Positions 17,369 through 64,000 of a stretch of 64,000 nt of DNA are shown here, one piece after another. This DNA is from Saprospiraceae bacterium. GTDB lineage: Bacteria > Bacteroidota > Bacteroidia > Chitinophagales > Saprospiraceae. The notes under the pieces were generated by a model. It was not told the DNA's origin. It made no database searches and saw nothing but the letters and a program-made list of their open reading frames with translations. The stretch's first letter is position 1. The number at the start of each line of letters is the position of its first letter. The position numbers were made by a program, and so were the translations under genes. Location: contig JALSGS010000033.1 in assembly GCA_026982695.1 (NCBI GenBank), positions 62,001 through 126,000 on the forward strand, read 5' to 3'.

Positions 17369-17538
17369 GGTCGGTCAGATTTTGTGATTTGTCGTGGGCA
17401 CAAGTTTAAGTATATTATTGAGTTGTGAAGCCACAACCCAACGGTGAGTTTCCCCCAGAGTGTACAAAAAGTACACCAATAGCATGTTAAAAGACTTTTT
17501 AATTTGGGCTACTGTAACAAGCTTTCTAAAGTTTGTAT

Positions 17539-17546
17539 TAACTTTG
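17539..17546 (+). promoter_or_regulatory. Possible -7 promoter box
   Basis: TAACTTTG matches TAnnTTTG and lies 57 nt before ATG 17604 in the 235-nt divergent gap. No matching -33 TTTG is found at the usual spacing, so support is weak. Confidence 0.33.
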
Positions 17547-17603
17547 TGTAAACTGAAGGTTTGCTTGCTGTTAACTGCAAGTGGGTGTCAAAAAACAGGT
17601 GTT

Positions 17604-18104
17604 ATGGCAGAGAAGGAGAAATACAAAGAGACACAGACTTTTGGCTATCCGGAAGTTTGGATGCTAATTGGTGGTTTGCAAGTAGGGCTGATCATTCGAT
17701 TTGTGCAGCATTGGCTGGAAGGCAGTTATGCCTTGTTCCCGTTTGAGACTTTACTGTTTCTGAGTGCACCCCTAGTGGTGCTGATGGTGTTTTTGTGGAA
17801 ATTGCGAGTCGAAGTGCGCGTTTCGGCTAAAAAAATAGCAATCCATGTGCGCGATTGGTATCGTCACAAGCGGGCAAAAATACCAGTAGCAGAAATTGAA
17901 GAAATTGAGTTGATAGACACGCCGCCTGCAGCGCAATGGGTAGGTGGAAATATTTCTTTCGACCATGCACACCAGTTTAGTCTACAAGGCAGGCGTGGTC
18001 TGTTCATTCGTACACGTGAGGGTGAGGAATATTTCGTAGGGGTAAGCAACATTCAGCAGTTAAAACCTTTATTGCGCAAGCTGAAAAAGAAGCTGAAATC
18101 TTAA
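17604..18104 (+). CDS. Small membrane protein with two helices and a PH-like soluble domain, function unknown
   Basis: A 166-residue protein I do not recognise by name. Two hydrophobic helices (about 18-34, MLIGGLQVGLIIRFVQHW, and 43-62, TLLFLSAPLVVLMVFLW) are followed by a soluble beta-rich part. That part includes RVSAKKIAIHVRDWY, a basic KRAKIPVAEIEEIEL strand and RGLFIRTREGEEYFVGVSN, with a Lys-rich helix at the end (LKPLLRKLKKKLKS). The order (two helices, then strands and a terminal helix) resembles bacterial PH domains of the bPH/DUF304 sort. ATG 17604 was chosen because the frame upstream lies in a non-coding-looking AT-rich stretch. It stands alone between a divergent gene and a terminator at 18161. 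Confidence 0.68.
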   Translation: MAEKEKYKETQTFGYPEVWMLIGGLQVGLIIRFVQHWLEGSYALFPFETLLFLSAPLVVLMVFLWKLRVEVRVSAKKIAIHVRDWYRHKRAKIPVAEIEEIELIDTPPAAQWVGGNISFDHAHQFSLQGRRGLFIRTREGEEYFVGVSNIQQLKPLLRKLKKKLKS

Positions 18105-18160
18105 ATTAGTAAGCAGTAATTGTGCGCTGAATAGTGCATATTATTGTAAGTGTGCCTATG

Positions 18161-18192
18161 ATGGTAGTGGTTACAGGCCGCTACCATTTTTT
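18161..18192 (+). terminator. Rho-independent terminator after the PH-like membrane protein gene
   Basis: ATGGTAGTGG (18161-18170) pairs with CCGCTACCAT (18178-18187) with one G-T wobble and a 7-nt loop, followed by a run of six T. It separates this gene from the promoter of the hybrid kinase gene. Confidence 0.78.
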
Positions 18193-18193
18193 G

Positions 18194-18223
18194 TTTGTAA
18201 AAAGCAGCACGGCATTATGTTTG
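18194..18223 (+). promoter_or_regulatory. Bacteroidota-type promoter of the hybrid kinase gene
   Basis: TTTG at 18194-18197, an 18-nt spacer, and TATGTTTG at 18216-18223 fit the Bacteroidota consensus (TTTG, about 19 nt, TAnnTTTG). Transcription would start near 18230, leaving a short leader before ATG 18256. Confidence 0.66.
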
Positions 18224-18255: not shown

Positions 18256-20814
18256 ATGCGACTTTTCTTTCTTTTATTAGGGCTTTCCTTATTTATACGT
18301 TCTTGGGCGGATACGAATACCACGCAACAGCTTCCCGATTCCTTAGCCCAACAATTGGCTAGCACTCGTGGTGAAGCACGTGCTGAGGTACTGCTACATA
18401 TAGGTAGTTGGTGGGCCAAACAAGGAGATGTCGGCAAGGCCTTGCAGCAATGGCAACAAGCGGCAGCTTTGGCTATTGACTCGGGAAATAAACGATTGGC
18501 CTGGAAAGCTAAGCGGCAACAGGCCATGCTTTTGTCTCAGCATTATGCTTATGAGCGAGCCCTGAAACTTTGGCTTGAGTTGTTAGAGGCTTTTGAAAAA
18601 GAAGGCGATCACAAAGAGCAAAGTGAAGCTTTAGTAGCCATTGGGCGCTTGCACTTGCAGATGGAAAATTTTGCGGAAGCAGAAAAAGCTTTGAAACAAG
18701 CCAATGACTTGGCCGCTGTGATGAGTGACAAGCAACTGCTGGCTGAAAGCTGGAGTGCTTTGGGCGATTTGTTCAAGCACAAGGGGGTATTGGGGCAAGC
18801 CAAAATTCACTACAAAAAGGCGCTAGACGCATGGATCAACCAGAAAAATGTAGAAAAATCGCTGGCTTTGGCTTCCTTGATTGGTCAGCTGAGTTTCCAA
18901 CTGGGTGATTATGAAGGAGCCATTTTACATTTCCAGTTGGCTCGAGATATGCACAGTCAGATGGGAGATATGGCTGGCTTAGCCTCTGATCTGTTGTACA
19001 TAGGTGAAGCGCAATTGGCACAAGGATATGTGGATGAAGCTGCACAAACAGTAGATGCGGCATTGGAACTCGGGGGAGGGACATCTATGATCAGGGCTAA
19101 GCTACTCATGCTCAAGGCTAAAATGTCCGAATCTTTAAAACAGGCTTTACCGCTGCTTAGACGTGCCAAACACTTACTGGCTACAGCACCAGCTATTCGG
19201 GAGTTGCCCGACGTGTGGGAAGCACTGGCGCAACAGTTTGCCGATATAGGCGCGTTCGAACAGGCCCTTGAGGCTGCATATCAGGCCAACGAGGCGTTGG
19301 TGCGCTATTTCGACGTAGAGCGCAATCGGGCCATGTTGGAATTATCCAAACGATTTGAAACCCAATCGACGCTTAGAGAGCAGCAGCAACGCATTGAGAT
19401 GCTCGAAATGGAAAAAGCGCGTAGCCAGTTATTCCGCCTTATGCTATTGGTCGTGTTGGGTTTGTTACTAGTAGTAGCAGTTGTGTTGTGGCATGCCTAT
19501 CGCGTCAAGCGCAAGGACAATGCGCTGCTCAAGGAGAAAAATGCCCAAATAGAGCAGGCTCGAAAAGCCATCGAGCACAAAAACAAGGAGCTGGAAGAGA
19601 TGAATGCCAAACTTGAGGTGCTTAACGAACAACTAGTTCGTGAAATAGGCGAACGCGAGAGTGTGGAGAAGTCTTCTTTCGCACGTGATCGTTTTTTGGC
19701 TATCATGAGCCAAGAGATGCGCACTCCACTCAATGTCATTACTAATTTGGCGCATCAATTGATAGAAGATACACCGCGTCCTGATCAGAAAGAACAGCTA
19801 CGACAATTGCAGTTTGCCGCCAATAGCTTGGTCGTTTTCATGAACGATGTATTGGACTTTTCGCGTATCGAGGCAGGTAAGCTGACTCTTGATAGCAGAC
19901 CATTTCCCATAAAAAGGTGGATCAAAGACATAGTAGAACAGTACCAATTGGCTGCAGCACAACAGCAAGTCAAATTCAATCTATATTTAGACCCCAAAAT
20001 TCCTGAATGGGTAGAAGGTGATCCCAGTCGTATAAACCAAATCTTGTCCAACTTGCTTTCTTTGGCCATTGATCGCTCTCCCAAGCAGTCTGTCGATTTG
20101 ATGGTGCATCTGCACGAGTTGCATCCCGGTGAAGCCATTATCAACTTGTCGTTGATTTCTGCAACTCCTTTGTTATCGGAAAAGGAAAGAGTAGAATTGC
20201 AAAAGCATCTTACCATTTCGGATGCAGATCAGATGGAATCCTTCTCGCGGGCCGATCTGTCGTTAGTGATTACTAAACGGCTTGTCGATTTACAAAATGG
20301 GCATATTGAAATAACCGATAAAGAAAATACACATACTATTATGATCTTTTTGCCATTCAAGGTGGCTGAGGCTGAAGACCTACAAGAGGGCAAGCAAACA
20401 GCGGATGCGTCTTCATACGATCATTTGGCAGGCAAACGGGTACTATTGGCCGAAGACAATAAGATCAACCAAGTTGTAGTAGCCAATCTTTTGCGCAAGC
20501 TGGGTATGGAGGTCGTTACGGCCAACAATGGCCAGGAAGCGGTGGAGGCTATTCGACAGGCTGATTTTGACATCGTGCTCATGGATATTCAAATGCCAGA
20601 GATGGACGGTTATCAGGCCACCATGGAGATTCGCAAAATGAAAGACATACGCAAAAGGGAGGTACCCATCATAGCTTTGACGGCTTCGGCCTTTCTTACC
20701 GAGCGCGAGAAAGCACGTCTGTTTGGCATGAACGATCACGTAGGCAAGCCTTTTAGCCCTGAAGAGCTAATCGATAAGATCAGCCATTTGCTCAAGGTGC
20801 ATGCCAAAGGTTGA
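18256..20814 (+). CDS. TPR hybrid sensor kinase with degenerate kinase core and intact receiver domain
   Basis: An 852-residue membrane protein. Signal peptide 1-18; about seven TPR-like helical pairs (35-360) on the outer side; membrane helix about 394-415; coiled coil 418-470; DHp region about 474-540; ATPase-like region 585-702; receiver 727-847. The H-box reads MSQEMRTPLN: Gln486 stands where the phosphorylated His is expected. The ATPase-like region also lacks its motifs: the N-box is SNLLSLAIDRS without the key Asn, no D-x-G box is seen, and the G2 box GTGLGLAI appears as RADLSLVI. The receiver is complete: E733/D734, D777, T809 and K831. It therefore looks like a pseudokinase that carries a functional receiver. 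Many Bacteroidota TPR-HKs exist, but usually with an intact His. A strong promoter is upstream. Confidence 0.88.
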   Translation: MRLFFLLLGLSLFIRSWADTNTTQQLPDSLAQQLASTRGEARAEVLLHIGSWWAKQGDVGKALQQWQQAAALAIDSGNKRLAWKAKRQQAMLLSQHYAYERALKLWLELLEAFEKEGDHKEQSEALVAIGRLHLQMENFAEAEKALKQANDLAAVMSDKQLLAESWSALGDLFKHKGVLGQAKIHYKKALDAWINQKNVEKSLALASLIGQLSFQLGDYEGAILHFQLARDMHSQMGDMAGLASDLLYIGEAQLAQGYVDEAAQTVDAALELGGGTSMIRAKLLMLKAKMSESLKQALPLLRRAKHLLATAPAIRELPDVWEALAQQFADIGAFEQALEAAYQANEALVRYFDVERNRAMLELSKRFETQSTLREQQQRIEMLEMEKARSQLFRLMLLVVLGLLLVVAVVLWHAYRVKRKDNALLKEKNAQIEQARKAIEHKNKELEEMNAKLEVLNEQLVREIGERESVEKSSFARDRFLAIMSQEMRTPLNVITNLAHQLIEDTPRPDQKEQLRQLQFAANSLVVFMNDVLDFSRIEAGKLTLDSRPFPIKRWIKDIVEQYQLAAAQQQVKFNLYLDPKIPEWVEGDPSRINQILSNLLSLAIDRSPKQSVDLMVHLHELHPGEAIINLSLISATPLLSEKERVELQKHLTISDADQMESFSRADLSLVITKRLVDLQNGHIEITDKENTHTIMIFLPFKVAEAEDLQEGKQTADASSYDHLAGKRVLLAEDNKINQVVVANLLRKLGMEVVTANNGQEAVEAIRQADFDIVLMDIQMPEMDGYQATMEIRKMKDIRKREVPIIALTASAFLTEREKARLFGMNDHVGKPFSPEELIDKISHLLKVHAKG

Positions 20815-57681: not shown

Positions 57682-60600
57682 ATGCAAAGAGTATGTCTTT
57701 TTTTCATATTTGTTCTGTTTTGTTTCTATACACAATTGTCCAAGGGACAGGTAATAGGAAAGGTAGCACAGGATATTTCAGCGATTTACCAGCTAAATGG
57801 ACATACCAAAGGGCGTTTCCTGATTGATCAGCCTGTCGATGAAATGCAGGTGCAAATCTGTGATTTACTGCCAGGAAAGCGCTATCGATTGTGGGTAGTA
57901 GGGCCACAGCCTGCTTCGTTTACTGCAAAGTTGGAGTTGTACAAGGCTGCCCAACCTACAGCTCATTTGCCAGACAATACACCTACTTGTGAGTGGTGGG
58001 GCTATTATCACATTTTTTATGCAGAGAGCGATTGCCTCACGGTAACATTAAATGGTCAGAGTCGCTTATTGGGCAATCGACCTTTGTACGTGAGTATTCA
58101 ATGCACTGATTGTACGGCGCAGGCCCAGGCGATGGAAAAGGGGGATCAGCCGGAGCTCCCCGTGCTTTCTGTTTTGTCGCAATCACCTACTTATCTTATC
58201 CAAGATGTATTGGTAGGAGGTGGGTGTTTTGACGTGAGTGCCATTTCGCCAATCGGTTCATCAGCGGGTTTGGGAGAGTTTTTTAATGGATTGAGCTCGG
58301 TGGGCTTCGACCATGGCGTGTTGTTGGAAACGGGGTCTATCTTCAATGCACTAGGCCCCAACAATTCCAACAGTGCGGGCAATAATTTAGGTAGTGGTGG
58401 AGATCCCGATCTGAATATTCTTGGCGCAGGGCCTGTGTACGATGCCGTAGGCATTGAGTTTGATTTTACGCCTACTGTAGATACAATCACCTTTAATTAC
58501 GTGTTTGCTTCAGAAGAATATTGCGAGTATGTCAATTCTCCCTATAATGACGTGTTTGGCTTTTTCATCAGTGGGCCAGGATTTAATGGTGGCTTTACCT
58601 CTAACGGTGAGAATATTGCTTTGGTACCAGGTTCGAGTCAGTTTGTTGCCATCAATACGGTTAACCATCTGCAGAATCAAATTTACTTCAACCCCAACCA
58701 AAACAATTGTAATGGCACGACCAATATGACGGATATTCAATTTGATGGATATACCACTATATTGACAGCTACTGCAGTTGTGGTGCCATGTGCTACCTAT
58801 CACATCCGCTTGGTAGTAGGCGATGTAGGTGATGGCATATATGACAGCGCTGTGTTTTTAGAAGCCAATAGTTTTACACCAGGTAATGCGGTGGCAGCTA
58901 ATGTGGTGTCAGGAGTGGGTAGCTCGGGTAGCAGCAATGCGACTATCTATGAAGGATGCACAGGGAACTTTCTCGTTTTTGAACGTCAAAACAACGACAA
59001 CTCTCAACCTATTACTGTCTCTTACATTATATCCAACACGAGTACCGCTACTGCCGGTGTAGACTATGATCCGCTACCTGTCACTGTGACGATCCCTGCT
59101 GGACAAGACACCGTGATGATACCTTTGACGGTATTTGCCGATGGCATTCCCGAAGGTGTGGAAACCATAGTGATTGAGCTGGATAATCCCTGTACCTGTA
59201 CGGGCAACATAGTCACGATCAACATTGAAGATGTGGACCTACAGGCTGCTCTCAGCAATATAAATGGATGTGGTGCTGCCCCCCAAACTTTGACTCCTTC
59301 GGTAGAGGGTGGCCCTGCACCGTATTCCTATGTCTGGAGCAATGGTGCTACCACCCCCAGTATTACTGTTTCTCCCCCTTTGGGTACACCTACTACTTAT
59401 GTGGTGACTGTGACAGATGCCTGTGGCAATACTGATACAGCTGCAGCTACAGTGACCTTGGCTGTGCCACCTACTGCAGTACTATCTGGCAATGGCACGG
59501 CTTGCGGTACTGGAACTACATCAGTTGATGTAACGGTTACCTTCACTGGCACGGGGCCTTGGCAGTTTGTTTATACTATTAATGGCGCAGCTCAGCCAGC
59601 AGTGACCACTTCTGACAATCCCTATACTTTTACAGTAACGGGTGTGAATGCTGGGGATGTGATTGGCTTGTTAAGCGTCGATTATGTGGATGTGGCGTGC
59701 CCTGGTGCAGTTTCGGGTACAGTCACTATCTCTCAGGTGGATTTGCAGCCATCGGCTACTACCGTCGATGTGAGTTGTGCAGGTGCCAACGATGGGCAAA
59801 TTAATCTTAGCGTATCAGGTGGTACGGGGAATTATAGCTATCAATGGAGTGGTGGCCTGCCCTCTGTGCCCGTATTGACCAATGTGCCACCAGGCACGTA
59901 CACTGTGACAGTAACTGATAATGGGGCGGGGGGATGTATGGGTACGGCTACTGTGACGATCAATGAACCGCCTCCCTTAGATGTGTCGATTAGTACAACA
60001 CCTGTAAACTGTAATGGGGGTGGAAGTATTTCTGTAAATGTAACAGGTGGGACACCTGCTTATACATACATTTGGAGTGATGGGTTGGCAGGAGCAAACC
60101 CTTCCAACTTGTCATCAGGTACTTATGACCTTACTGTATCAGATGCCAATGGCTGCACAGATATGGCTTCTGTCACGATAGGCGAGGACCTCGTGCCTCC
60201 TACGGCAGCTGCTACTGCCAGCGGAATCATTACCTGTGCGCAGCCCGAGCTTACTTTATCAGGTGTGGGCTCCTCTACTGGTAGCAACTTTACGTATCAG
60301 TGGTCGGGTCCAGGCATTGTTTCGGGTGGCACGACGCTGACACCTACTGTCAATGCGGGGGGGACCTATACACTTACCGTGACAGATGAGTCTAATGGCT
60401 GTACGGCTACGGCAACTGTGAGTGTACCTGAGGACACTACGCCGCCAACGGCTGTAGCTTCAGGTGGTACGATTACCTGCTACAATCCACTTATTACCAT
60501 CAACGGAGTGGGTAGTAGTACGGGAAGCGATTTTACGTATCAATGGTCGGGTCCAGGCATTGTTTCGGGTGGCACGACGCTGACGCCTACTGTCAATGCA

Positions 60601-63600
60601 GGGGGTAGTTATACGCTTACCGTGACAGATGAGTCTAATGGCTGTACGGCTACGGCAACAGTAACTGTATTTGACAACACAACGCTGCCACAAGTGAACG
60701 CTTCCGCACCGCCGATTACGTGTGCACAACCTGAAGTAACACTTAGTGGAGCAGGTACGAGTATAGGGTCCAACTTTGCATATCAATGGACGGGCCCTGG
60801 AATTGTGTCAGGCAGCAATGGCCTCTTTCCTACTGTCAATATGCCAGGTACGTATACTTTGGTCGTGACCAACTTGGTCAATGGTTGTGTAGATAGTGCG
60901 TCGGTGACAGTAGTAGAAAATACTACTCCGCCTCAGGCACTCATTCAACTGCCTGAACCATTGGATTGCATGCAACCTACCGTTACGCTAAGCGGAGCTG
61001 GGTCGAGTACAGGACAGCATAGCTATCAGTGGGATGGCCCTGGAGTTGTTTCGGGTGGCAATACCCTTATGCCTGTAGTGAATGCACCAGGGACATACGT
61101 CCTCGTAGTGACGGATAATGTCAATGGCTGTACGGACACGGCTTTTGTCACTGTAGTAGACAACAGCGATCCTCCTATAGCAGTAGCATCGGTATCTAAT
61201 CAACTAGATTGTGTACATAGCACGGCTACTTTGTTCAGCAGTGGTTCCACTACGGGTACGGGTATTCAATATACCTGGACAGGTCCAGGAATTGTCAGCG
61301 GGCAATTTAGCCCTACAGCACTAGTCAATGCACCAGGCAATTATGTACTTTCTGTGTACAACAGCAATAATGGTTGTGCCAGTTCTGCAGTCGTAACGGT
61401 AATCAGCGATACGGCTCCCCCCACGGTACAGATTGCCCAACCTCCTCCGTTTACTTGTAATACCAATTGGGTGACTATTCAAGCTGCAGGCACCTCTACT
61501 GGCAATGAGTTTAGCTATTTGTGGACCACTACCGATGGTGTTATTCTTACAGGGCAGGGTACATTGACACCTATAGCAGGAAGCCCTGGTACGTATGTGC
61601 TAGAAGTGACCAATACAGATAACGGCTGCAGCGCTTCAGACTCAGTGACCATTACATCGGATACACTGACCCCTGTGGCTGATGCCGGTCCCCCACAAAT
61701 GCTGAATTGTGCGCATCCTGAGGTTACCTTGCAGGGAAGTACATCGAATGGTAGTACTAATAATTTGGAGTTTTTATGGATAGGGCCTGGCATTGTGTCG
61801 GGTGAAACTACATCTACACCCATAGTCGATCAGCCAGGAACTTATACGCTGATTGTCACCAATGCAACTAACAACTGTAGCGATACGGCTTCGGTAGTAG
61901 TAGATGAAGATGTGCAAATACCTACAGCGATAATCCAGCCGCCTGGTACACTGAACTGTCAAGATACTGTATTGCAGCTCGATGCTTCACAAAGCTCTAC
62001 GGGTACTTACATCATGTATACCTGGACAACTACTGACGGACTTATACTCGATGGCGCAACGACGCCTATGCCCACTATTGGGGCGCCTGGATTGTATATA
62101 CTCAGTGTCTACAATACAACCAATCAGTGTAGCAATATTGCTTCGGTGACTGTTGATGCTGTGTACAACTATCCAATAGTGGATGCGGGGCCAGATATGA
62201 TCATCACGTGTACGACCTCAGAAGTTGTGCTCGATGCGACCAACTCGCAAGTAGCTTCTGGGCAAGTGATTCAATGGCATTCCCTTTCGGGAAATATTGT
62301 ATCGGGAGCTCAATCTCTGACCCCTTTAGTCAATGAGCCGGGCACTTATGTGCTTACCATTACAGACACGCTTTCTGCCTGCGCGGCTACTGATGAAGTA
62401 GTCGTCAGTGTGGATGCCAATGTGCCTGTTGCAGATGCAGGGCCTGATGTCGCGTTTAATTGCATTAGTGGCGATACACTGATGCTCGATGCCAGCAACT
62501 CTTCCTCTGGTCCGAACTTTGTGTATGCCTGGCAAACTGTTGAGGGTCAAATCATTAGTGGCGACAGTACGCTCATGCCCCTCGTTGGCGCACCTGGTAC
62601 TTACGAACTAGTTGTGACCAATACGCAAAATGGTTGTGTGGCATTTTCTTCCGTTACTGTGGGAGAAAATTATGTGGCGCCTATTCCTACTATTGCCTCG
62701 CCCGAAGTGATTAACTGTACGCAATCTGCGGTGTGGTTGGATGCATCAGCCTCAACAAATGCAGATTACTATGCCTGGAGTACGCCCGACGGCTCTTTTC
62801 TGTCGGATACACTCACTGCATCTGTGGTGAAAGTTGGTGCAGCAGGTACCTATGTACTCACTTTGACTAATGAGTCCAGTGGCTGTACGGTTACAGACTC
62901 TGTGGAAGTGACTGAGGACTTTACCACACCGCTGCCACAAGTGGCTGCTGTACCGCTGCTTACCTGTGCCCAACCACAGGTGATGATTGATGCCACCCCT
63001 TCTGTGATTGATAGTTTGACCACGATATATTGGACTACAACCGATGGCCACATCATTGATGGAGATAGTACACTTACCCCTGTGGTAAATGCGGTCGGGC
63101 AATATTTGTTGACCCTTACGCACCAGCTCAGCCAATGTGTCGATTCAATGACTGTAACTGTAGTGGCGGATCAAGCATTGCCCGAGGTAGATGCAGGTCA
63201 GTCCTTTACACTAGATTGTAGTGAGCCTCAGGCGTCGCTTTCTGGCATGTCCGACAGCACAATGGTTGTATGGTGGACTACTTCTGATGGCCAAATTGTG
63301 TCGGGAGATAGTACGCTTACTCCTATAGTCAGTAGTAGTGGCACCTATGTATTGCATGCGATGAACCCGCAAACGGGCTGTTTGGCTCAAGATTCAGTGG
63401 TGGTACAAGATGATAGCTCTTTGCCACAAATCTATATTGAAACGCCTGAGCCTTTATCCTGCTATCAAAGCGAAGTGGTGCTCGATGCCACCAATTCGGA
63501 TTCGGATAGTATGTTGATAATCACTTGGGAAACGTTTGATGGGCATTTTGTGTCTGGGCAAAATTCACTTATGCCTGTAGTGGATGCGGCGGGTGTCTAT

Positions 63601-64000
63601 ACACTGAGCATTGCCAATCCCCTTACGGGCTGTGTCAGTGAGGAGAGCGTGACCGTCCAAATAGATACGACAGCCCCCGTGGTGACTATCGCGCCGCCAC
63701 CACTTATGGGATGTGGAATCAATTCAGTGGTACTCGATGCATCTGCTTTTGCACAAGGTGCAAATATTTCCTATTTGTGGACGACACCAGACGGACAAAT
63801 ACTTGAAGGCGAGTCATCTGCCACACCAGTAGTAGGTGGGCCGGGTACCTATGTACTCACTGTGCACAACACAGTCAATGGTTGTCAACGCACTGATACA
63901 GCGGTGGTAGTACAAGACTTGACACAGCCTCAGATTTCTGTAGGCGAAGATCGCTTCCTCACTTGCGCCCAGGACACCTTAATTATTCAGGCACAAGTGG
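57682..64000 (+). CDS. Giant choice-of-anchor L / repeat adhesin (3' end outside window)
   Basis: The frame is open from ATG 57682 to the right edge, 2106 codons with no stop; in-frame stops occur just upstream. Signal peptide about 1-22. A Cys-containing N-terminal beta domain (about 25-155) is followed by choice-of-anchor L about 165-400 (FASEEYCEYVNSPYNDVFGF, VGDVGDGIYDSAVFLEANSF), Calx-beta-like about 413-520 (ATAGVDYDPLPVTVTIPAGQ), PKD- or Ig-like segments to about 690, two SprB-like repeats to about 833 and then at least 15 repeats of about 80 residues. The order is close to the 23361-28862 protein. It probably ends in a T9SS type B domain beyond the edge. Surface adhesin is the likely role. 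The antisense strand carries long open frames that are side effects of the repeats. Confidence 0.86.
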   Translation, partial: MQRVCLFFIFVLFCFYTQLSKGQVIGKVAQDISAIYQLNGHTKGRFLIDQPVDEMQVQICDLLPGKRYRLWVVGPQPASFTAKLELYKAAQPTAHLPDNTPTCEWWGYYHIFYAESDCLTVTLNGQSRLLGNRPLYVSIQCTDCTAQAQAMEKGDQPELPVLSVLSQSPTYLIQDVLVGGGCFDVSAISPIGSSAGLGEFFNGLSSVGFDHGVLLETGSIFNALGPNNSNSAGNNLGSGGDPDLNILGAGPVYDAVGIEFDFTPTVDTITFNYVFASEEYCEYVNSPYNDVFGFFISGPGFNGGFTSNGENIALVPGSSQFVAINTVNHLQNQIYFNPNQNNCNGTTNMTDIQFDGYTTILTATAVVVPCATYHIRLVVGDVGDGIYDSAVFLEANSFTPGNAVAANVVSGVGSSGSSNATIYEGCTGNFLVFERQNNDNSQPITVSYIISNTSTATAGVDYDPLPVTVTIPAGQDTVMIPLTVFADGIPEGVETIVIELDNPCTCTGNIVTINIEDVDLQAALSNINGCGAAPQTLTPSVEGGPAPYSYVWSNGATTPSITVSPPLGTPTTYVVTVTDACGNTDTAAATVTLAVPPTAVLSGNGTACGTGTTSVDVTVTFTGTGPWQFVYTINGAAQPAVTTSDNPYTFTVTGVNAGDVIGLLSVDYVDVACPGAVSGTVTISQVDLQPSATTVDVSCAGANDGQINLSVSGGTGNYSYQWSGGLPSVPVLTNVPPGTYTVTVTDNGAGGCMGTATVTINEPPPLDVSISTTPVNCNGGGSISVNVTGGTPAYTYIWSDGLAGANPSNLSSGTYDLTVSDANGCTDMASVTIGEDLVPPTAAATASGIITCAQPELTLSGVGSSTGSNFTYQWSGPGIVSGGTTLTPTVNAGGTYTLTVTDESNGCTATATVSVPEDTTPPTAVASGGTITCYNPLITINGVGSSTGSDFTYQWSGPGIVSGGTTLTPTVNAGGSYTLTVTDESNGCTATATVTVFDNTTLPQVNASAPPITCAQPEVTLSGAGTSIGSNFAYQWTGPGIVSGSNGLFPTVNMPGTYTLVVTNLVNGCVDSASVTVVENTTPPQALIQLPEPLDCMQPTVTLSGAGSSTGQHSYQWDGPGVVSGGNTLMPVVNAPGTYVLVVTDNVNGCTDTAFVTVVDNSDPPIAVASVSNQLDCVHSTATLFSSGSTTGTGIQYTWTGPGIVSGQFSPTALVNAPGNYVLSVYNSNNGCASSAVVTVISDTAPPTVQIAQPPPFTCNTNWVTIQAAGTSTGNEFSYLWTTTDGVILTGQGTLTPIAGSPGTYVLEVTNTDNGCSASDSVTITSDTLTPVADAGPPQMLNCAHPEVTLQGSTSNGSTNNLEFLWIGPGIVSGETTSTPIVDQPGTYTLIVTNATNNCSDTASVVVDEDVQIPTAIIQPPGTLNCQDTVLQLDASQSSTGTYIMYTWTTTDGLILDGATTPMPTIGAPGLYILSVYNTTNQCSNIASVTVDAVYNYPIVDAGPDMIITCTTSEVVLDATNSQVASGQVIQWHSLSGNIVSGAQSLTPLVNEPGTYVLTITDTLSACAATDEVVVSVDANVPVADAGPDVAFNCISGDTLMLDASNSSSGPNFVYAWQTVEGQIISGDSTLMPLVGAPGTYELVVTNTQNGCVAFSSVTVGENYVAPIPTIASPEVINCTQSAVWLDASASTNADYYAWSTPDGSFLSDTLTASVVKVGAAGTYVLTLTNESSGCTVTDSVEVTEDFTTPLPQVAAVPLLTCAQPQVMIDATPSVIDSLTTIYWTTTDGHIIDGDSTLTPVVNAVGQYLLTLTHQLSQCVDSMTVTVVADQALPEVDAGQSFTLDCSEPQASLSGMSDSTMVVWWTTSDGQIVSGDSTLTPIVSSSGTYVLHAMNPQTGCLAQDSVVVQDDSSLPQIYIETPEPLSCYQSEVVLDATNSDSDSMLIITWETFDGHFVSGQNSLMPVVDAAGVYTLSIANPLTGCVSEESVTVQIDTTAPVVTIAPPPLMGCGINSVVLDASAFAQGANISYLWTTPDGQILEGESSATPVVGGPGTYVLTVHNTVNGCQRTDTAVVVQDLTQPQISVGEDRFLTCAQDTLIIQAQV
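60187..64000 (+). repeat. Tandem array of about 80-codon repeats, 15 full plus a partial 16th
   Basis: Units start at roughly 60190, 60436, 60676, 60919, 61159, 61411, 61669, 61915, 62161, 62419, 62677, 62929, 63178, 63421, 63673 and 63922. Each has the order P-x-x-x-A (start), L-x-C, V-T-L-x-G/D-A, Y-x-W, G-x-I-x-S-G, L-x-P-x-V, PGTYVLTVTN and N-G-C. Two cysteines per unit, one near each end, suggest one disulfide per domain. Units 1 and 2 are nearly identical over about 120 nt (60295-60415 and 60538-60658, offset 243 nt). Confidence 0.88.

Follow-up and report, generated by a model that had tools for sequence, protein, structure and literature searches.

A TPR-sensor hybrid histidine kinase of Saprospiraceae with lost kinase motifs and a conserved receiver, probably a regulator that draws phosphate off a neighbouring pathway

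We found that a hybrid histidine kinase with a TPR sensor, encoded by a Saprospiraceae bacterium, has lost its kinase motifs while its receiver and DHp domain are kept, and that such losses are repeated among its orthologs. Judged from its residues, the protein is almost certainly kinase-dead and would be expected not to autophosphorylate. It is probably not a broken gene but a regulator that draws phosphate off a neighbouring signalling pathway. The specific reading that we prefer, in which a membrane TPR sensor that has lost its autokinase activity now only strips phosphate from an HPt hub or from the hybrid kinase of that hub, stands in our judgment at about even chances.

Gene, domain layout, and catalytic residues

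The host genome comprises 61 contigs (3.84 Mb), and the focal gene lies in the window, by which we mean the whole 64,000-nt stretch of DNA that was analysed (Table 1). The original prediction had placed the gene correctly, and its translation revealed 852 open codons with no interruption. Pfam recognized TPRs, HisKA (PF00512, 6e-13), and a receiver (Response_reg, PF00072, 1e-26), with HATPase_c falling below threshold (24.0 bits versus a cut-off of 26.4). According to Pfam, the AlphaFold model, and fold matches, HisKA, HATPase, and a C-terminal receiver are joined in one chain, which is the architecture of a hybrid histidine kinase. The TPRs lie between the signal peptide and the TM helix, consistent with the "outer" TPR region proposed earlier, and a coiled stalk separates the TM helix from HisKA. 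In the AlphaFold model, whose input was the window and related-locus sequences rather than true orthologs, the whole CA fold is kept with high confidence; the nearest solved folds in the PDB include RetS, HK853-RR468, and DivL (4q20).

Table 1. Features of the focal gene and its upstream region (positions in the window)
Feature	Position	Strand	Evidence or remark
Terminator-like hairpin, then T-run, upstream of the focal gene	18160..18188	+	upstream sequence
Candidate Bacteroidota-type promoter TTTG-N18-TATGTTTG	18194..18223	+	weak
Gene for 852-aa TPR pseudo-hybrid kinase	18256..20814	+	ORF translation, Pfam, orthologs
Signal peptide-like N-terminus, residues 1-19	18256..18312	+	sequence; helix 2-20 in model
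TPR sensor region, about residues 40-380	18373..19395	+	Pfam TPR matches; helical repeats in model
Transmembrane helix, residues 393-411	19432..19488	+	hydropathy maximum 3.0
HisKA/DHp domain, residues 476-541	19681..19878	+	PF00512
Gln486 codon (CAA) replacing the phospho-His	19711..19713	+	H-box M-S-Q486-E-M-R-T490-P
Retained E487-x-x-T490 (ExxT transmitter phosphatase motif)	19714..19725	+	sequence; motif meaning from PMC5992135
Degenerate HATPase/CA domain, residues 588-701, fold predicted intact	20017..20358	+	Pfam; model pLDDT mostly >90
N-box remnant NLLSLAIDR, second Asn = Leu603	20050..20076	+	residue check
G1 remnant SAT (S635-A-T637) replacing DxG	20158..20166	+	residue check
G2 remnant RADLSLVI, residues 665-672 (R-A-D667-L-S669-L versus G-x-G)	20248..20271	+	residue check
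Complete receiver domain, residues 727-845	20434..20790	+	PF00072 1e-26; pentad invariant in family
Asp777 phospho-acceptor codon	20584..20586	+	residue check

The replacement of the phospho-His by Gln486, claimed in the original prediction, was confirmed, and the ortholog in G028, the only other genome of the genus compared, has the same Gln. The claim that the D-x-G and GTGLGL boxes are missing also held, with SAT and RADLSLVI in their places. For the N-box Asn, said to be lacking, the picture is more nuanced: the second, Mg-binding Asn is indeed Leu603, but the first (N599) is kept. The residues that mark an active HisKA-type kinase are thus replaced at the H-box His (Q486) and in the N, G1, and G2 boxes (L603, S635/T637, and D667/S669), and neither of the genus members compared keeps any of the six scored kinase residues. 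All receiver residues listed beforehand (E733/D734, D777, T809, and K831) are present. With its kinase residues lost, purifying selection (see below), and an intact receiver, the protein classifies as a pseudo-hybrid histidine kinase.

A "very good promoter" had been claimed as well, which is borne out only in part. A sigma-70 scan upstream of the focal gene gave nothing above shuffles, but a weak Bacteroidota-like candidate sits behind the terminator-like hairpin (Table 1). Just upstream, at 17460–18104 on the same strand, the window encodes a 214-aa protein with a sub-threshold DUF3093 match only, which was not found beside the focal ortholog in G028. At the other end of the window, 57682–63999 holds one reading frame of at least 2,106 aa that runs past the window end; an Rfam search of this ORF-poor region matched no family.

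Repeated losses in a conserved ortholog family

Full-length orthologs were found in 71 of 398 Saprospiraceae genomes (26 of 112 genera), and an order-level sample yielded none outside Saprospiraceae, its three matches all belonging to the same family. The five receiver residues are present in every one of 72 orthologs (72/72), the His in 54 of 71, and all six kinase residues in 18 of 72. The corresponding counts for 103 other hybrid kinases (from other bacteria, plus paralogs) were 103, 102, and 101, in a control set that was picked by similarity, is alignable across the whole core, and may under-count dead kinases. A matched control, the hub hybrid kinase encoded in the ortholog-bearing genomes (see below), has the full set of six in each of 19 cases. 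Intact orthologs share a housekeeping neighbourhood with several others, among them G168 and G108, which have no His, and this confirms orthology for those members. Intermediate states also occur: the phospho-His is kept and several ATP-site residues are lost in G352, G270, G379, G371, G279, G181, G244, G097, G075, G165, and G091, and the G033 group displays the reverse pattern, most of its members having Asn for His with G1 and G2 intact.

The G028 ortholog, 61% identical over its full length, shares all six losses, and therefore sequencing error or a local mutation is ruled out. According to the original prediction, close relatives with the standard His and G boxes would refute it; the outcome is split, with the same losses in the congener and a mixture of intact and independently dead orthologs in other genera. 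The dead kinase is therefore a recurrent, lineage-specific conversion, neither a fixed family trait nor a local mutation.

The His was lost independently at least five times and probably seven. Specifically, losses in the own genus, g79, g46, g33, and G108 were required in 200 of 200 bootstrap trees, which were built from the orthologs without the kinase-core columns and without G375 and G301 (incomplete or long rows); a quick tree sets these two apart and adds two further losses. The replacements in the seven lineages are Gln, Gln, Arg/Ala, Asn, Asn, Asn, and Gln, i.e., amides in six of seven, compared with the one third expected from codon neighbours alone (p about 0.007), although selection for a polar helix surface would give the same result. 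A Thr or Asn at H+4 is kept in five of the seven lineages and absent from g46 and G301. With the own genus, g97 and G279 form a group (98/95 support); these two keep the His but no longer have the second N-box Asn or the G2 box, and the ATP site was therefore probably lost first in this branch.

The coherent reading frame had been taken to argue against plain decay, and the evidence for selection indeed excludes it. Between the focal and G028 proteins, identity is 88% in DHp, 87% in the receiver, 57% in CA, and 50% in the TPRs; the Gln codon differs synonymously (CAA/CAG), and the two genes have no shared neighbour in the stretch compared. For this pair dN/dS is unusable, dS being saturated, so that the case for selection draws on the domain identities and on other pairs: the less diverged G079 and G168, both His-less, give an omega of ~0.025 at a nearly saturated dS of 2.8, and for G181 and G244, whose ATP sites are dead, omega is 0.026 at a dS of 0.45. 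On a fixed tree, the CA/TPR and REC/TPR ratios are no higher in His-less members than in intact ones, and the HisKA/TPR ratio is slightly higher without the His (0.31 versus 0.23). Relaxed selection, under which a once-active hybrid kinase would be heading for loss, agrees with the large CA distances of dead lineages and with the graded motif loss across the family. Set against it are the low omega values, the CA/TPR and REC/TPR ratios, the invariant receiver pentad, the synonymous change of the Gln codon, and the lack of an internal stop in any ortholog match; we regard this explanation as largely refuted and very improbable.

A candidate phosphate partner and competing readings

As a likely phosphate partner of the focal protein, we propose a stand-alone HPt together with its hybrid kinase. 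In the own genome, this hub operon (C34; L246:9382-12116, − strand) consists of an intact REC-PAS-HK-REC hybrid kinase (C34:212740-215115, −) and then the HPt (C34:212387-212743, −). An HPt domain is present in 20 of 20 genomes tested besides the own one, is orthologous in all genomes tested except the His-less G375 (where the draft was searched), and lies directly behind the hybrid kinase gene in the own genome and in 19 relatives with a parsed HPt region; in G028, the HPt at C273 adjoins a hybrid-kinase match on the same strand, as judged from neighbouring matches. In many relatives the gene next after the hub HPt encodes a single-domain receiver of ~125 aa, and in the own genome an apparent sugar nucleotidyltransferase gene occupies that slot. 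The own-genome receiver closest to the focal one is that of the hub kinase (48%), followed by those of other hybrids (43–45%) and then by ordinary regulators.

Of the 71 genomes that carry the focal gene, 65 yielded the hub HPt, and five of the other six are ≤87% complete; of the 327 that do not carry it, 67 yielded the hub HPt. By genus, the counts are 26 of 26 with versus 24 of 86 without the focal gene, obtained with a profile built mainly from focal-gene genomes and across genera that are not independent, owing to shared ancestry. This co-occurrence supports the link as a correlation, short of proof. Two other candidates were rejected. The conserved neighbours of the gene, assigned by reading their sequences, are housekeeping genes (e.g., dapB, cysteine desulfurase, BCAT, and rdgB), which disposes of a partner encoded next door, and obligate pairing with an intact TPR-hybrid paralog (L141 type) is incompatible with the distribution of close full-length matches to that paralog, found in genera g10, g49, g63, and g72 and in none of the His-less lineages.

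In the phosphate drain that we propose, the ancestor would have been a working hybrid kinase in which ATP binding was lost and the phospho-His later, with selection keeping the DHp dimer and the receiver. Phosphoryl groups would pass to Asp777 either from the stand-alone HPt or from the adjacent intact hybrid kinase; these would then be lost by hydrolysis, aided by the ExxT motif of the DHp helix, and the periplasmic TPR domain may gate their removal. We favour a signal-gated drain because CqsS mutants and RetS drain phosphate, E487 and T490 are kept in the focal protein, and the CA fold is predicted to be kept. Specifically, CqsS H194Q and G379A/G381A still dephosphorylate the HPt protein LuxU~P and D618N does not (PMC3310172), while RetS, without G boxes, does not autophosphorylate; its REC2 serves as a phosphate sink, and its HExxT motif confers transmitter phosphatase activity (PMC5992135). 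The original prediction held that the protein cannot autophosphorylate and is either a receiver serving another kinase or a scaffold gated by a signal; this agrees with the evidence and is supported in part, and the form proposed here, a drain or transmitter phosphatase with the HPt hub as partner, is sharper. Several observations count against a drain: the focal gene is an orphan without a signalling gene among its conserved neighbours, other hybrid receivers of the own genome are nearly as similar to the focal one as that of the hub kinase, the own genome has no single receiver in the place after the hub HPt where relatives often have one, the His-less G375 has no orthologous HPt in its draft, and g46 and G301 have no Thr/Asn at H+4. 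In addition, DivL, a pseudo-HK of the same fold, has no phosphatase activity (PMC4211667).

The main rival, by analogy, is a DivL-like scaffold or phospho-sensor, because the DivL core binds a receiver without any catalysis. Without any catalytic step, the dead DHp-CA core would bind a phosphorylated receiver, either its own or that of another protein, or heterodimerize with a live kinase and act on it allosterically, its own receiver serving as the input, phosphorylated by another kinase or an HPt. DivL, however, is not known to have a C-terminal receiver of its own, the invariance of the five receiver residues (72/72) is equally compatible with active phosphotransfer, synteny pointed to no partner kinase, and the intact L141 paralog is absent from the His-less lineages. 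What speaks for a scaffold is that the focal DHp, though it has no phospho-His, matches the receiver in conservation, that the CA fold is predicted intact with DivL 4q20 among its PDB matches, that the H+4 Thr is not universal in dead members, and that DivL itself, with Tyr for His, binds DivK~P via the RR docking surface and is neither kinase nor phosphatase (PMC4211667). On balance, we retain the scaffold as a tentative possibility.

Signal flow could also be reversed, with D777 phosphorylated by another kinase or HPt and the signal running outward via DHp and the TM helix to the periplasmic TPRs. The fusion of a complete receiver to a DHp coil, a TM helix, and a TPR sensor would suit such a membrane-bound response regulator, and for DivL reversed flow has been proposed and periplasmic signalling raised as a possibility (PMC4211667). 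Yet the TPR region, 50% identical between the genus members, evolves fastest, a pace better suited to a varying input than to a conserved output, and no periplasmic effector or partner is known; we consider this reading unlikely. Scarcely credible is an unorthodox kinase, in which another residue is phosphorylated or the CA domain still catalyses phosphorylation through non-standard motifs. The confidently predicted CA fold and the sequence RLVDLQNG behind the G2 position, kept in nearly all orthologs, would be in keeping with it, but no alternative acceptor was seen, both genus members have other residues in the N, G1, and G2 boxes, and the changes vary by lineage, as expected from loss and not from one new chemistry.

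An extension of the drain reading holds that an ancestral TPR hybrid kinase of Saprospiraceae turned several times into a dedicated, signal-gated drain of the one conserved HPt hub and that His-to-Gln/Asn changes were selected, placing an amide opposite the aspartyl-phosphate. CheZ and CheX have an amide opposite the receiver aspartyl-phosphate. We consider this extension doubtful; if it is true, then together with the second, older dead-hybrid family described below, "phosphatase-only" hybrids would be a standing part of Saprospiraceae signalling.

A second dead hybrid and comparison with known systems

The own genome encodes a second dead-kinase hybrid (C8:92481-94460; L247:8482-10461, + strand), a 660-aa REC-PAS-HK-REC protein whose gene adjoins a single-domain receiver and which resembles the focal protein only as an HK, the two being otherwise unrelated. 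Among 120 Saprospiraceae genomes, 57 have long matches to it, spread over 53 of 112 genera, and all 12 members read have Phe at the His position, mostly degraded ATP-site boxes, and an intact receiver. The remaining own-genome HisKA proteins found by a PF00512 search keep the His. Ideas on the route from kinase to pseudokinase have so far mostly been guesses drawn from single examples. In the present family of orthologs, dozens of genomes supply members that are intact, half-dead, or fully dead, with repeated independent losses and an invariant receiver, next to a hub kinase that is undecayed in every genome read; it forms a natural series for direct tests of the function that pseudo-histidine kinases retain. 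It also implies that annotations as "hybrid histidine kinase" in Bacteroidota can cover proteins that are probably unable to self-phosphorylate.

RetS of Pseudomonas aeruginosa is among the closest PDB matches to the focal protein by sequence and fold, although at about 24% identity in the core it is not treated as an ortholog. It has a 7TM/DISM sensor, a second receiver, and the H-box His, whereas the focal protein has a TPR sensor, one receiver, and Gln486. Like the focal protein, RetS is a hybrid with a CA domain without G boxes and a kept ExxT motif; it cannot autophosphorylate, and its receiver Asp is a phosphate sink for another hybrid kinase (PMC5992135). The quorum-sensing proteins CqsS, LuxN, and LuxQ are likewise hybrid kinases, with one HPt in common; the engineered H194Q and Cat- mutants of CqsS have the same kind of residue pattern as the focal protein and still drain LuxU~P through the receiver Asp (PMC3310172). 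They differ from the focal protein in being live kinases, their dead forms being laboratory mutants, and in having unrelated sensor domains; LuxQ is among the best NCBIfam matches of the focal protein, far under its cut-off.

The DivL combination of Tyr at the His position, PAS sensors, and no known receiver is not that of the focal protein. DivL of Caulobacter nevertheless resembles it in its HisKA-CA fold, replaced phospho-His, poor ATP binding, and a DHp surface that still binds a receiver, and differs in having Tyr rather than Gln, in its PAS sensors, and in being neither kinase nor phosphatase (PMC4211667). Another Caulobacter hybrid kinase, CCNA_03265, also has no conserved His and keeps the receiver Asp, and its authors suggested phosphorylation by an HPt; in the available part of that source, it is a single case mentioned in passing, with no family-level conservation or repeated loss described (PMC11481889). 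Single pseudo-hybrid kinases were known before, and it is the repeated, independent conversion within one orthologous family that is notable. A eukaryotic parallel is offered by the plant subfamily II ethylene receptors (e.g., ETR2 and EIN4), some of which have a receiver, and which differ from the focal protein in their ethylene-binding TM domain and in acting through CTR1. Like the focal protein, they have a degenerate histidine kinase domain without catalytic residues (PMC7994261).
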